Virus record (IMG/VR): IMGVR_UViG_3300025655_000226
Coordinates: 1-27,543 of that record
Length of the DNA: 27,543 nucleotides
Source: a virus
Reading direction: 5' to 3' (one strand)
The notes beneath the pieces are model-generated. The model was not told the DNA's origin. It was given only the letters and a program-made list of their open reading frames with translations, and searched no databases. This document shows, one piece after another, positions 1 through 4,301 of the stretch; positions within the stretch are counted from its first letter, which is position 1; every line of letters starts with the position of its first letter. Position numbers and translations under genes: made by a program.

Positions 1-152
1 TGTTGATTAACAACAGACCTGATGGACAAACCGGCATTGCACAACTTGCTCAGATGAAAAAAGCTATTAAAATGGCTGAAAAAGTTTCTGTTATTGCAAG
101 AGGAAATGCTATGTCTGAGATGATGGAAGATGTAAGTTGCGGTTGCGACTAG
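1..152 (+). CDS. 3' end of an unknown phage protein, truncated by the window edge
   Basis: The reading frame starting at base 3 is open from the left edge and ends with TAG at 150-152, giving 49 visible residues. The visible part is mostly helical and rich in Ala, Lys and Met, with the stretch AQLAQMKKAIKMAEK in the middle, and it finishes with the cysteine pair of SCGCD. A similar Cys-Gly-Cys motif occurs in the small protein at 4779-4961. A terminator follows within 21 bases, which supports this being a real gene end. The family cannot be recognised from this fragment and no function is proposed. Confidence 0.55.
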   Translation, partial: LINNRPDGQTGIAQLAQMKKAIKMAEKVSVIARGNAMSEMMEDVSCGCD

Positions 153-172
153 TAAAATCCATTTGTAAAAAC

Positions 173-202
173 AGCGAGGTTCTAATCAATCTCGCTTTTT
201 TT
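173..202 (+). terminator. Rho-independent terminator after the truncated first gene
   Basis: AGCGAGGTT (173-181) pairs with AATCTCGCT (188-196), a 9-bp stem with one G-T pair and a 6-base loop. A T-run to base 202 follows directly. It lies 21 bases after the stop codon at 150-152 and separates the leftmost gene from the groEL regulatory region. Confidence 0.85.
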
Positions 203-211
203 ATCATTAAT

Positions 212-238
212 CGACATAACCGGTTATGTTTTATGTCG
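212..238. repeat. Perfect palindrome nested in an inverted repeat (operator-like)
   Basis: ACATAACCGGTTATGT (214-229) is a perfect 16-bp palindrome. Overlapping it, CGACATAA (212-219) is repeated inverted as TTATGTCG (231-238), so the left arm can pair with either of two right arms. The arms contain the same CGACAT core that recurs in the array at 426-475. It follows the terminator at 173-202, so a simple terminator role is unlikely; a dimeric protein-binding site is the more natural reading, by inference. Confidence 0.6.
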
Positions 239-425
239 TTTTTGCGACGACTCATTTTTTGTAACTATCTCTTTATTAATACTTTATTCTTTTAATGTCG
301 ATAATGTTAAAAAAAAGAAGAGAATAGCTTCAAAAAAAAAGAAAGAGAGTAGTGTTTTATAGAGAGAGAGTATAGAAAAACAAAATCGCTTTTTGACACA
401 TTTTCAATGTTCATTGGGCTTAGCA

Positions 426-475
426 CAACATTGCATCAACATTTTTCAACATTTTTCGACATAAATCAACATAAA
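426..475 (+). repeat. Array of CRACAT repeats phased at one helical turn
   Basis: Cores of the form C(A/G)ACAT start at 426, 437, 447, 457 and 467, so spacings are 11, 10, 10 and 10 bases. The last four are exact 10-base units: TCAACATTTT twice, then TCGACATAAA and TCAACATAAA. Three more copies lie upstream, at 212 on the plus strand and at 233-238 and 295-300 on the minus strand. A 10-bp period places the sites on one face of the helix, as expected for iterons or a cooperative operator array. The array lies about 115-165 bases upstream of the groEL promoter. Confidence 0.7.
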
Positions 476-588
476 CCATAAAAAAAATGACACAGACCCT
501 TGCGTCATCCACAAACAAGAGCATAATAATTATTGTTTTGCTATCGCATTTTCTTTTCAAAAGTGGCTTTAATTAGAATTAATTGTAC

Positions 589-596
589 TATATTTG
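589..596 (+). promoter_or_regulatory. Bacteroidota-type promoter of the groEL operon (-7 element)
   Basis: TATATTTG fits the TAnnTTTG -7 element used by the Bacteroidota primary sigma factor. It ends 27 bases before the groEL ATG, similar to the other promoters in this window. No clear TTTG box is seen 17-23 bases upstream, so the upstream element is weak or absent, and the nearby repeat array may bind an activator or a repressor. Confidence 0.7.
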
Positions 597-622
597 CATA
601 TAACAATTAAAAATCAAATCAA

Positions 623-2239
623 ATGTTAGAAAATCAAGGTTATTCTCCTAAGGATTTACAATTTGGAGCAGAAGGAAGGAAAAAATTAGTTAGTGGCGTT
701 GTGAAAATGTCCAAAGCTGTGAAAGCTACATTAGGTCCGGGAGGTAATCCTGTGTTAATTGAATCTCCAAACCACACTCACAGTATCACAGTTACCAAAG
801 ACGGTGTAACTGTTGCAAAATCAATTGACTTACTTGACCCTTCGGAGAACCTTGCGGTTAAGATGATGAAGGAAGCTGCTGAGAAGACTGCTACTTCAGC
901 AGGAGATGGTACAACAACCGCTATTGTCCTTACTGAGGGATTGGTATTGAGTGGTATTGAGCACATAACAGCAGACTTAAACCGAACTGAGGTATTGAGA
1001 TGTATGGTGGACATCAGCGACAAGGTGGTGGACAAGTTACGAAGACGTAGCAAAAGAGTTACAAGCGCGATGTTAGTAGATGTAGCGAGTATCTCTGCAA
1101 ATAACGATAGAGAGATTGGGAAGATTATCTCAGAGGTGTACAAAGATGTGGGTAAAAACGGTATCGTTACAGTAGAGAAAAGTCAGAACGATGAGACCTA
1201 TGCTGAGACCACAATGGGGTTGAAATTCGACAGAGGGTACTTAAGCCCGATGTTTATAAATGATTCTAAAAAAGATGAGTGCGTATTTGAAGACACTATG
1301 GTTATGGTTGCTGATATGGAGATTACTAATATCCTTCAGATTGAGAGCATACTTAAACCAATTGTACAAGAAGGTAAGAAGTTATTGATTATATCCCCTT
1401 GTAATCAGAACTTGATTAATAGTTTGGCAGCGAATGTTGTCAAAGGACACATCAAAGTATGTGCGGTTGCACCTCCGGCATTTGGATACAAGCAGCACGA
1501 GCTGATGCAAGACATCGCTATCAGTGTTGGGGCTACTTATTTCAGTGAAAAGACAGGAGATGACTTGAGTATAATCAACTATGGCGACCTTGGACACGCA
1601 TACAAAGTAATTGTAAGCAAAGACAAGACCATTATCATCAAATCAAACACAAAAACAGACCAAAGAGCTATTGGCGCAAGAGTTGAACAGCTGTGGGATT
1701 CGCATAAAAACGCCACAAAAAAGCACGAAAAGGACCATTTATTGGAGAGAATTGCATCATTAACAGGTGGAATTGGGGTTATTTTTGTGGGTGGACAGAC
1801 TGACTTGGAGCAGAAAGAATTGTTCGATAGGGTTGACGATGCTGTTTGCGCGGTGCGTTCCGCACTTGAAGAAGGGATTCTACCGGGTGCAGGAAAGGCT
1901 TTGCTTGAAGAATCAGCTGCTTTGTTTACAGATGCAGATAAGAGTCCTGAATATGATGCGGCATTGAGAATTTTAAAGGCAGCTCTTATGGCTCCGTTTT
2001 TACAGATACTTGCAAACGCAGGATTGAAAGCTGAAGATATTTACAAAGATGGAACTGCTGAAGGTCAAGGTTACAACTTGAAGACAAGAGAGTATGGCGA
2101 CTTGATTAAGATGGGAGTAATCGACCCATTGAAAGTAACGCGAAGCGCATTACAAAATGCTGTGAGTGTAGCTGTAACAATCTTGAGTACCGATGCGATA
2201 ATTACGTTAGCTCGTACTTATGTGCAGGCTGAAGACTAA
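623..2239 (+). CDS. groEL: Phage-encoded chaperonin GroEL (60 kDa, type I)
   Basis: ATP-driven folding chamber subunit acting in the host cytoplasm, here probably for phage virion proteins. The 538 residues match group I chaperonins along the whole length. Visible landmarks are the nucleotide-binding TLGPG (36-40), TKDGVTVA (58-65), the catalytic loop AGDGTTTA (93-100, with Asp95 equivalent to E. coli Asp87), FDRGYLSP (202-209) and Asp406 equivalent to Asp398. Oddities: the usual LGPKGR is LGPGGN, and the C-terminus ends in VQAED without the Gly-Gly-Met tail. The start has a Bacteroidota leader (AATCAAATCAAATG) and a promoter 27 bases upstream. It heads an operon that ends with groES. Family assignment is firm; a dedicated virion substrate is inference. 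Confidence 0.97.
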   Translation: MLENQGYSPKDLQFGAEGRKKLVSGVVKMSKAVKATLGPGGNPVLIESPNHTHSITVTKDGVTVAKSIDLLDPSENLAVKMMKEAAEKTATSAGDGTTTAIVLTEGLVLSGIEHITADLNRTEVLRCMVDISDKVVDKLRRRSKRVTSAMLVDVASISANNDREIGKIISEVYKDVGKNGIVTVEKSQNDETYAETTMGLKFDRGYLSPMFINDSKKDECVFEDTMVMVADMEITNILQIESILKPIVQEGKKLLIISPCNQNLINSLAANVVKGHIKVCAVAPPAFGYKQHELMQDIAISVGATYFSEKTGDDLSIINYGDLGHAYKVIVSKDKTIIIKSNTKTDQRAIGARVEQLWDSHKNATKKHEKDHLLERIASLTGGIGVIFVGGQTDLEQKELFDRVDDAVCAVRSALEEGILPGAGKALLEESAALFTDADKSPEYDAALRILKAALMAPFLQILANAGLKAEDIYKDGTAEGQGYNLKTREYGDLIKMGVIDPLKVTRSALQNAVSVAVTILSTDAIITLARTYVQAED

Positions 2240-2441
2240 AGAGTTCATAAAGTTTACTGTGATATGGGTGGCGTGTAATCTATCAATACCATTTTGGATG
2301 GTAGGACACGTACACCTAACGGTAAACATCTACGAGGACTTGACTGAGATATTAACGTCAATGGGAATGAACATAATAGTTGCTGTTGGCTTTTGGTTAA
2401 ATTGGAAAGACGAATCTAAAAATTATGATAAGAGGAATTGA
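2220..2441 (+). CDS. Small protein with two predicted membrane segments
   Basis: 73 residues with hydrophobic stretches at about 12-30 (FTVIWVACNLSIPFWMVGH) and 46-62 (TSMGMNIIVAVGFWLNW), and a charged C-terminal tail. A small inner-membrane protein with a helical hairpin is the likely shape. It overlaps the last 20 bases of groEL and the first 17 bases of the next gene, as expected for translationally coupled phage genes. I do not recognise a family. A holin-like or membrane-regulatory role is possible, but a better holin candidate exists at 7792-8223. Confidence 0.6.
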   Translation: MCRLKTKEFIKFTVIWVACNLSIPFWMVGHVHLTVNIYEDLTEILTSMGMNIIVAVGFWLNWKDESKNYDKRN

Positions 2442-2655
2442 CTACGTTACGATAGAAGTTTATGGATTAAACCAATCAGGGATGGCAGACTTAGAAGAGT
2501 GCCAAGGATTGTTGGATGAAAGTCCAAGGTTTAAGGACTTCAGAGCTGAGGCATTGAATCATAGAAGGGGAACCGGATATGTGGACGTAGCATTATACCC
2601 TAAAGATGGGGATAAGAGAAAATTCATAGAGGATGTAAAAAAGTTTGGACTATAA
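2425..2655 (+). CDS. Hypothetical small protein in the chaperonin operon
   Basis: 76 residues, soluble, mixed alpha/beta in appearance: a strand-like start (DYVTIEVYGL), a central acidic helix, a second strand (GYVDVALYP) and a C-terminal basic helix (KRKFIEDVKKFGL). No catalytic motif or cysteine pair beyond a single Cys is visible. It overlaps the preceding gene and precedes groES by 33 bases, so it is probably co-transcribed from the promoter at 589. I do not recognise the family, and no function is proposed. Confidence 0.65.
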   Translation: MIRGIDYVTIEVYGLNQSGMADLEECQGLLDESPRFKDFRAEALNHRRGTGYVDVALYPKDGDKRKFIEDVKKFGL

Positions 2656-2688
2656 AAAATAAAATAAACAATTAAAAATAAAAAAATT

Positions 2689-2952
2689 ATGTCATTAAAG
2701 CCCATCGGAAAATATATTGTCATCAAGACTATTGATGAAGAGTTAAAGACAGAGTCAGGATTGATTCTATCAGGAGAAGATGTAAATCAAATGCGTTATA
2801 AGCGCGGTATAGTTATTGCTTCGGGAACAGATGTTCCACATATCAAAAAAGATGATGAAATCTATTACGATAAAGTGCAAGGATTTACAATGTTGATTGA
2901 CGATAAGCAATACACGATTATTCGGGAGAACGATGTCGTTGTTGTTTTATAA
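2689..2952 (+). CDS. groES: Phage-encoded co-chaperonin GroES
   Basis: Lid of the GroEL chamber. The 87 residues follow the GroES plan: first strand PIGKYIVIK, a mobile loop about 16-36 carrying the hydrophobic tripeptide Leu25-Ile26-Leu27 that docks on GroEL, the strand RGIVIASG, a KKDDEIYYD strand and the C-terminal strand NDVVVVL. It is about ten residues shorter than bacterial GroES because the roof hairpin is reduced to GTDVPHI. It follows groEL in the same operon, so the phage carries a complete, probably matched, chaperonin pair. The last 35 bases overlap the 3' end of the convergent gene on the other strand. The start is set by the A/T-rich leader directly before the ATG. Confidence 0.9.
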   Translation: MSLKPIGKYIVIKTIDEELKTESGLILSGEDVNQMRYKRGIVIASGTDVPHIKKDDEIYYDKVQGFTMLIDDKQYTIIRENDVVVVL

Positions 2953-3361
2953 CTTTGTTCATTTCAATAATCATATCGCGATAAACCTTATCTGAGTATG
3001 ATACATTTTTATGAAACATTTTATTATATGAATTACTAACGGGGATTTCTTCCCCGCTTAGTTTTCTATAAAGCGTCTGAATCATTCGAGTGGCTTTAAT
3101 TGTCAATTGGTACAGAGCCTTTCTATTACCAACTCTATTTCTAAACTTTACTATCCACCCTTCTTTTTGAAGTCTGAAGAAACGAGTTACATCCCACCCC
3201 AAAAGATTATCAAACTCTTCAAACTTATCTTTTCCAAAATACTTTTCAGAGTATAGGAATAACAACATATCTAAGTCAGCCTGAGTAAGTTCGTATTTAA
3301 TTTTTGCGAATTGGCGAATTACTCTCCAATATTTTAGGTAATCATCTTGATTTGATTTCAT
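2918..3361 (-). CDS. Winged-helix-like DNA-binding protein, putative regulator
   Basis: 147 residues, and the only gene on the minus strand. The N-terminal half is helical (LTQADLDMLLFLYSE), followed by a helix pair (FFRLQKEGWI) and a beta wing (VGNRKALYQLT), the pattern of MarR-like winged-helix proteins. The C-terminal half is basic and helical and ends in KQQRHRSPE. Similar proteins occur beside the late genes of other Bacteroidota phages (from memory). It has its own -7 element TAACTTTG (3394-3387), 26 bases before its ATG and overlapping the rightward promoter, so it could control both directions. Its 3' end overlaps groES by 35 bases. The fold is inferred; the DNA target is unknown. Confidence 0.75.
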   Translation of the reverse strand: MKSNQDDYLKYWRVIRQFAKIKYELTQADLDMLLFLYSEKYFGKDKFEEFDNLLGWDVTRFFRLQKEGWIVKFRNRVGNRKALYQLTIKATRMIQTLYRKLSGEEIPVSNSYNKMFHKNVSYSDKVYRDMIIEMNKVIKQQRHRSPE

Positions 3362-3376
3362 TTGAATTTTTTTTTA

Positions 3377-3384
3377 TACATTTG
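3377..3384 (+). promoter_or_regulatory. Rightward Bacteroidota-type promoter for the small-protein cluster
   Basis: TACATTTG matches TAnnTTTG and ends 28 bases before the ATG at 3412. A TTTG at 3351-3354 lies 22 bases upstream, an acceptable -33 element, making this the best two-part promoter of the window. Its last four bases belong to the palindrome TTTGTACAAA (3381-3390) shared with the leftward promoter. Confidence 0.7.
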
Positions 3385-3386
3385 TA

Positions 3387-3394
3387 CAAAGTTA
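3387..3394 (-). promoter_or_regulatory. Leftward promoter for the winged-helix gene, overlapping the rightward one
   Basis: On the minus strand, TAACTTTG (3394 to 3387) fits TAnnTTTG and ends 26 bases before the start codon at 3361. It uses the other arm of the palindrome TTTGTACAAA (3381-3390), so the two -7 elements point away from each other with their initiation regions crossing. No good -33 box is seen for this direction. Confidence 0.55.
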
Positions 3395-3411
3395 TTAAAT
3401 AAAAAATAATT

Positions 3412-3633
3412 ATGGCACTAAATAATCAAAGACCCGACACTCCATTAGCAACTACCCCTGAGCCTCAACCTGTTAGTTCAGGATTGCAACCTTCAACTCA
3501 GATGGGAATGATTCCTCAGCAAAGAGTTGCTACAAAATTTGAGCAAACTGCTGACAGCGCTATAAATAAAATTAAAGCAATGACACCTGCTGCACCTGCT
3601 GCACCTGCCATACCTGCTGCACCTCAACAATAG
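3412..3633 (+). CDS. Small Pro/Ala-rich protein
   Basis: 73 residues of low complexity: a Pro/Thr-rich N-terminal part containing DTPLATTPEPQP, a short amphipathic segment (KFEQTADSAINKIKAM) and a C-terminal Ala-Pro tail built from repeats of the codon block GCACCTGCT. It is probably mostly disordered. It is the first gene after the promoter at 3377 and is five bases from the next gene, with which it shares a DTPL motif near the N-terminus. No family is recognised; a minor virion component or internal head protein would fit the neighbourhood, but this is only context. Confidence 0.6.
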   Translation: MALNNQRPDTPLATTPEPQPVSSGLQPSTQMGMIPQQRVATKFEQTADSAINKIKAMTPAAPAAPAIPAAPQQ

Positions 3634-3638
3634 AAATT

Positions 3639-3947
3639 ATGGGAATTGTAAAAAAAACAAAAGAAGAAAGAAAGGCAGAATCTGCCAAGACTTATGAGGC
3701 TGCATCAAAAAGAAGCGATACTCCTTTAGGAGATACTCCTGACCCAACTACACCTATTACAAATTTAAAATCGGCATTGGCTGATATTAATACAAGAAGT
3801 GCAGCAAGACAGGCATCTAAAGACGAATCTCAAGCAAAACTTGATGCTGATAGAATAGCAAGAAGCAGAGCAAAAAAATCTATTGCCGGAGAAGGTTCAA
3901 GACTTCAAGGATTGGCATCATTTGCGGATAGAACAAAATTAAAATAA
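3639..3947 (+). CDS. Small basic helical protein
   Basis: 102 residues, strongly charged. The N-terminus (KKTKEERKAESAKTYEAASK) is helical and basic, the middle carries SDTPLGDTPDP, similar to the DTPL segment of the preceding protein, and the C-terminal half is an Ala/Arg/Lys/Ser-rich helix that could form a coiled coil. No cysteine or catalytic motif is present. It belongs to the tight run of small genes 3412-4961, probably read from the promoter at 3377. I do not recognise the family. Confidence 0.65.
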   Translation: MGIVKKTKEERKAESAKTYEAASKRSDTPLGDTPDPTTPITNLKSALADINTRSAARQASKDESQAKLDADRIARSRAKKSIAGEGSRLQGLASFADRTKLK

Positions 3948-3975
3948 TAATTACTAACACAAACACTAAATTAAA

Positions 3976-4128
3976 ATGGCAAAGTCAAAATCAACACCAA
4001 ACTTACCCGCATCGTCAAAAATGCAAATGCCAATGGCAGCAAATAAACCTGCTATTAAAAACGCACTTAAAGGACCTTCTAAAGCGGCAGGAGTGAAATC
4101 AGTGAAAACTGCAATTAAAAAGAAATAA
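3976..4128 (+). CDS. Tiny basic protein, first of a tandem paralogous pair
   Basis: 50 residues. The N-terminus reads MAKSKSTPNLPASSKMQMPM and the rest is Lys/Ala-rich and strongly basic. The next gene starts in the last base of its stop codon (TAATG) and has the near-identical N-terminal motif TPNLPGSSRMQMPM, so the two are paralogs. The leader AAATTAAAATG is typical for this genome. The conserved TPNLPxSSxMQMPM block between two otherwise diverged peptides is good evidence that both are translated. The function is unknown. Confidence 0.7.
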   Translation: MAKSKSTPNLPASSKMQMPMAANKPAIKNALKGPSKAAGVKSVKTAIKKK

Positions 4129-4301
4129 TGGCTAAAGAAAAAGACACTCCGAACCTACCGGGTTCATCTCGTATGCAGATGCCTATGTCAAGTGGAAATA
4201 ATACTCCGCTTAAAATCAAAGCCGATAGTGATGGCGCAACTAGTAAAGTTACTAAAGCAGCCTCAGGAAAAGGTATGGGTGGTAAAAACCCTTATTGTTA
4301 A
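4128..4301 (+). CDS. Tiny basic protein, second of a tandem paralogous pair
   Basis: 57 residues starting MAKEKDTPNLPGSSRMQMPM, matching the preceding protein for about 20 residues, then diverging into a Lys/Ser/Gly-rich tail that ends KNPYC. The start codon overlaps the preceding stop (TAATG), indicating translational coupling. Compared with its partner it has an extra TPLKIKAD segment and a C-terminal cysteine. Function unknown; the pair looks like a recent local duplication followed by divergence of the C-terminal parts. Confidence 0.7.
   Translation: MAKEKDTPNLPGSSRMQMPMSSGNNTPLKIKADSDGATSKVTKAASGKGMGGKNPYC

Follow-up and report, generated by a model that had tools for sequence, protein, structure and literature searches.

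The CRACAT sites upstream of groEL in the window (the whole stretch of viral DNA analysed, a 27.5-kb fragment) are probably the iterons of a P4-like phage replication origin that is present in two copies and bound by the primase-helicase that the phage itself encodes, groEL being no more than a neighbour. Two functions had been suggested for this region in the original prediction, namely a phage replication origin with iterons and a master control site for the chaperonin operon. The former was the better supported of the two, as the element containing the sites is conserved, helically phased, duplicated beside a primase-helicase gene, very AT-rich and located near the GC-skew minimum, and its iterons and the predicted C-terminal winged helix of the primase-helicase change together. 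As judged from comparison of related phages, the duplication and this co-variation point to a two-part replication origin over a groEL switch. The arrangement may well constitute an undescribed replicon type, in which an initiator combining a BT4734-like primase, an SF3-type helicase and a winged helix acts on two distant phased iteron copies in the same orientation. Its logic would be P4-like with an unrelated primase, and K739, E749, T764, Y767 and R791 would be specificity residues readable from natural iteron switches.

Genome context

The relatives of the window are phages of approximately 60–65 kb. Three relative contigs had a 127-bp end overlap, consistent with circular assembly, and one relative is a complete circular genome (MW202828.1, 60,850 bp, annotated as Podoviridae sp.). 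The nearest isolates by primase search were flavobacterial phages; because of these isolates and the Bacteroidota-type −7 box of groEL, the hosts are probably members of the Bacteroidota. In most genomes, the early genes run leftward and the late genes rightward from a point 0.6–1.6 kb upstream of groEL.

Several smaller genes were noted in these genomes. The gene at 2918–3361 on the minus strand of the window encodes a 147-aa protein and overlaps the terminal part of groES, which is on the other strand; the protein is annotated as 'repressor protein' in MW202828 and had no Pfam match. Small tandem proteins with a 'DTPLATSPEP'-like N-terminal motif are encoded at 3412–4200 of the window and also in genome G003, and make up a family of repeated small genes close to the chaperonin genes. 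Small stand-alone Bac_DnaA_C proteins are encoded at L104:3985-4287 and L084:3317-3811 and have homologues in other genomes, one of these proteins (B100) being present in 11 of 11 genomes.

The CRACAT cluster and the conserved element upstream of groEL

All eight CRACAT sites originally reported were recovered, on the plus strand at 212, 426, 437, 447, 457 and 467 and on the minus strand at 233–238 and 295–300. A count over the whole window showed no overall enrichment (30 observed versus 26.8 expected), but the local cluster was exceptional in both density and phasing. None of 1,000 dinucleotide shuffles of the window matched either the eight sites, the best 265-bp stretch having five, or the five-site run with 10/11-bp spacing, the longest such run being three. 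Likewise, neither the eight sites nor the five-site run was attained in 20,000 shuffles of positions 151–622 alone. In most near-complete relatives, the densest CGACAT cluster genome-wide was at this same place upstream of groEL. The palindrome pointed out in the same region, ACATAACCGGTTATGT (214–229), is real and spans 16 bp but was not conserved among relatives.

Aligning the upstream regions of relatives, followed by an nhmmer profile search, revealed that the CRACAT repeats are one edge of a larger conserved AT-rich element (Table 1). This non-coding element of ~180 bp was detected by the profile in 75 of 80 groEL loci from relatives; of the five loci without a match, three (L015, L016 and L041) are truncated on the upstream side, and two (L076 and L079) have switched iterons. 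Its layout comprises ATGTCG iterons, TAACTTATTGATTATTAATA, an ATGTCG-N3-ATGTCG pair, a tract rich in purines and AT that contains TATATATA, and TTGACAT/CGACAT sites on the right. The 222–400 element and the helical phasing of its sites were kept in nearly all relatives, whereas the exact five-copy run with 10-bp spacing was common to only some, with 10-bp-spaced runs of three to six in L006–L008, L012 and L013. Between the ~180-bp element and the groEL promoter, the array at 426–472 forms a rightward extension that varies.

Table 1. Features at and around copy 1 of the element in the window
Feature	Position	Strand	Basis or remark
Likely terminator of upstream small gene	166–203	+	Arms 166–181/188–203, 88% complementary, then T run
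Left iterons CGACAT	212; 233–238	+; −	Flanking the non-conserved palindrome 214–229; CGACAT here recurrent in relatives
Element copy 1	222–400	+	nhmmer profile match 3–182, E 1e-33
IHF-like motif position	262–280	+	Consensus YAANNNNYTGATW, degenerate in the window as TAACTATCTCTTTATTAAT
Core iteron pair ATGTCG-N3-ATGTTA	295–309	−	
AT/purine-rich, easily melted tract (DUE-like)	310–381		Stability calculation
Five-iteron array: CAACAT ×3, CGACAT, CAACAT	426–472	+	Spacings 11, 10, 10, 10 bp
groEL Bacteroidota-type −7 promoter element TATATTTG	589–596	+	Sole TANNTTTG match in 1–640, either strand
groEL	623–2239	+	PF00118, phrog_5725; neighbour, probably outside the element's function

Distances between same-strand sites were almost only multiples of ~10.25–10.5 bp (vector strength 0.78). 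In 58 non-redundant regions these distances clustered at 9–12, 20–21, 30–32, 40–43, 50–53, 60–63 and 71–74 bp, with almost none between. CGACAT was found 59 times in the copy-1 regions versus 1.6 expected. The exact IHF consensus was present in 59 of 75 copy-1 elements and 68 of 91 copy-2 elements (see below) versus ~0.02 expected, the window's own copy being without it. In seven aligned relatives, the stretch from the bend-like motif to the core iteron pair is shorter by exactly 10 bp, a natural indel.

In the window, the region's least stable 120-bp stretch starts at 254 and falls within the lowest 0.8% of the window, although it is not the window minimum. The element and its surroundings combine directly repeated phased sites with an adjoining AT-rich, easily melted region, as is characteristic of iteron-type origins. 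An Rfam search of window positions 1–3500 gave no match. GC skew had been suggested as a check on an origin, and the cumulative minimum was found within ~3.5 kb of copy 1; this agrees with an origin but is confounded with the divergence of early and late transcription.

A second copy beside the primase-helicase gene

In all 11 near-complete genomes, the profile search detected a second copy of the element. It has the same genome orientation as the first and lies directly upstream of a gene that encodes an ~808-aa primase-helicase (P808); the weakest of these matches was that in MW202828 (E 1.5e-4). Among viral contigs, the element was located upstream of the P808 gene in 71 of 72 testable loci. 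Copy 2 is ~9–16 kb away from copy 1, usually lies between the terminator of the SSB gene and the P808 start codon, and has no chaperonin gene adjoining. CGACAT was again over-represented in copy 2 (21 versus 0.9 expected). The two least stable 120-bp windows genome-wide were the two copies in 5 of the 11 genomes, and at least one copy was among the five least stable in 10 of the 11.

In L253 (G020:1-12000), an intact copy 2 (3408–3571) is separated from the P808 start (5386) by ~1.8 kb that include several small open frames. Some distant P808 relatives (L332–L334 and L336) have no element adjoining the gene; these primase-helicases have SRQ/SXN-type recognition helices, and any iterons must lie elsewhere.

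The two copies also bear on a possible role of the element in transcriptional control, in which P808 or the 147-aa winged-helix-like protein (2918–3361) would bind it as a repressor or activator timing the expression of P808 and of the late genes and groEL. This explanation is unlikely. It is consistent with the occurrence of both copies in promoter-bearing intergenic regions after terminators, with the groEL −7 element ~120 bp downstream of the array and with the presence of the 147-aa protein in 80 of 80 groEL loci. However, P808 is transcribed to the left and groEL to the right, so that the two copies face opposite ways relative to local transcription; such a difference in orientation towards the gene that each precedes would not be expected of a simple operator or promoter. 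The distance between element and groEL varies from 51 to 634 bp, the ~1.8 kb between copy 2 and P808 in G020 likewise speaks against this explanation, and an operator needs neither a long AT-rich tract nor genome-minimum stability. In addition, phages of the genus Elemovirus have groEL without the element upstream. Three contigs of the family were without groEL and are fragments.

The existence of a second copy without a chaperonin neighbour, its orientation, the variable distance to groEL and the Elemovirus arrangement weaken the reading as a groEL operator, and leave a master control site for the chaperonin operon unsupported as the main role of the element. The 147-aa protein, which had been put forward originally as a binder, may nevertheless be an additional regulator. 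It is not informative as a binder of the iterons, because it is broadly diverged (~34%) in the iteron-switched phages.

Co-variation of the iterons and the predicted P808 winged helix

The window itself does not include P808, and the protein was read from relatives. Its N-terminal primase domain matched BT4734-like_N (PF08800, E 5e-19 to 5e-20), with a weak match to PriCT_1, a weak, sub-threshold match to DUF5906 and the Walker-like motifs PEGGTGKG and ILCFDD. A model of the C-terminal domain based on 56 sequences had the order strand-helix-helix-strand-strand, with a mean pLDDT of 68 and values of ~80–93 in the winged helix, and the domain is predicted to be a winged helix. A Foldseek search of this model against the PDB gave no significant match; the weak top list consisted mostly of winged-helix proteins, and 1ka8, the origin-binding domain of P4, ranked eighth in it (E 0.52, not significant). 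The whole-protein AlphaFold model had a mean pLDDT of 41 and was left out of the fold search, and a PDB sequence search with P808 gave spurious matches to designed proteins only. A homologue of the C-terminal half of P808 was also found together with a terminase gene in Salinibacter ruber pSR14 and pSR31 (L346 and L347), which are filed as plasmids and are probably phage-plasmids or satellites.

One clade has changed its iterons from CGACAT to TAACAT/CAACAT. In G060, ATGTTA/TAACAT replaces ATGTCG/CGACAT in both copies of the element, and a copy-2 scan found five more of these A-type phages, both copies being readable in G060 only. The six form a single clade (support 0.94) in a tree of P808 residues 1–690. 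The other 85 sequences share 443 P808 columns with at least 95% conservation; six of these columns are changed in every A-type member (I682V, K739M/L/T/I, E749V/N, T764Q, Y767S/F and R791K). Five of these six are within residues 735–795, where 27 of the conserved columns are located (Fisher p 3e-6, the co-variation tests having been designed post hoc, after the pattern was seen, with two events counted). T764 and Y767 are in the predicted recognition helix and R791 is in the predicted wing.

The second event was found in a separate lineage, L331, which has CAACAT/TAACAT iterons with Y738N, K739L and E749H; its sister L330 carries the common residues together with CGACAT iterons. The G-type phages that have the element keep E749, whereas 7 of 7 A-type phages have lost it. 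On the basis of this co-variation of winged-helix residues over two switch events, P808 is a candidate binder of the iterons.

The same comparison makes it improbable that the iterons represent modified DnaA boxes recognized by B100 and A162, the stand-alone DnaA domain-IV proteins of these phages. Two Bac_DnaA_C proteins do occur in nearly all genomes and TTTTCGACA is one position off TTWTNCACA, but the recognition helices of B100 and A162 differ greatly from phage to phage even where the CGACAT iterons are identical, whereas P808 is 76–98% identical and its winged helix changes precisely in those phages with changed iterons. The canonical DnaA box TTWTNCACA was found neither in the copy-1 regions of 11 genomes nor in the window, which also weakens this reading. 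A partition, packaging (pac/cos) or recombination site is more improbable still: two direct copies could recombine and plasmid centromeres also carry phased iterons, but copy 2 is tied to the primase-helicase gene and not to the terminase (~11 kb from copy 1), no partition or integrase gene tied to copy 2 was noticed in the genomes, and the iterons co-vary with the helicase.

Proposed origin and its significance

The computations establish the element together with its phasing, duplication, conservation and low stability, and the co-variation of iterons and winged helix. For the two-copy replication origin, we infer that binding, melting, loading and the start of replication take place at the element. 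Its parts are an iteron pair, an IHF/HU-like bend site, a second iteron pair, an AT/purine-rich melting tract and the right-hand iterons. Copy 1 lies upstream of groEL, at the junction of the divergent early and late gene blocks, and copy 2 just upstream of the gene for P808, with its BT4734-like primase, PriCT-like region, putative SF3-type ATPase and predicted C-terminal winged helix. The winged helix would bind the phased iterons, so that P808 multimers would be stacked on one helix face, while a bending protein at the IHF-like site would wrap the DNA. The AT-rich tract would melt and the P808 helicase ring would load and prime. The second copy may be a cis-acting partner of the first, like crr for ori in phage P4, and/or autoregulate P808; its location beside its own P808 gene would also fit autoregulation.

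The origins of uncultured phages are rarely identified, and here the element, its second copy, the likely initiator and candidate specificity residues were obtained from comparison alone, for a phage group that is common in metagenomes. The result suggests a two-site origin model for primase-helicases with a previously unknown DNA target, in contrast to the stem-loop origin proposed for related replicases, and shifts the focus to replication and away from a presumed chaperonin switch.

Comparison with known systems

The Flavobacterium phages of the genus Elemovirus have a similar genome plan, groEL/groES and a related primase N-terminus (residues 5–326). Unlike the phages studied here, they are without the element, the C-terminal half of P808 and the DnaA-C proteins, and have a separate annotated replication initiation protein.

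Replicases of the pRN1 orf904 type and of phage BIP-1 consist of an archaeo-eukaryotic-type primase, a helicase and a C-terminal winged helix in that order, and a stem-loop origin has been proposed for them (PMC4234260). The predicted domain order of P808 would match this type, the primase being clear, the ATPase suggested by motifs and the sub-threshold DUF5906 match, and the winged helix predicted from the model. The pRN1 origin is a stem-loop of ~100 nt without iterons, downstream of the gene, whereas here a phased iteron/AT element is located upstream, with a distant second copy.

Archaeo-eukaryotic-type primases (AEPs) of mobile elements, such as PrimQH, have PriCT, ATPase and winged-helix domains, and the winged helix has been suggested to recognize the origin; BT4734-like primases form a family of AEPs that is separate from the other clades (PMC5862659). 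The predicted domain layout of P808 is that of the PrimQH-type proteins, but it differs in its BT4734-like primase, and a candidate DNA target is supplied here.

In phage P4, two separate cis regions (ori and crr) carry the same iterons, and the two copies in 11 of 11 genomes here are alike in this respect. P4 alpha is a single primase-helicase whose C-terminal winged helix binds the origin repeats (PMC4234260, citing Ziegelin and Lanka 1995 and Yeo et al. 2002); its primase domain is of the bacterial Toprim type (PMC4234260). The primase of P808 is BT4734-like and not Toprim, the iterons and the element architecture are unrelated to those of P4, and the fold match to 1ka8 was below significance. 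The different primase type places the present system outside the P4 alpha systems, yet it appears to work like one.
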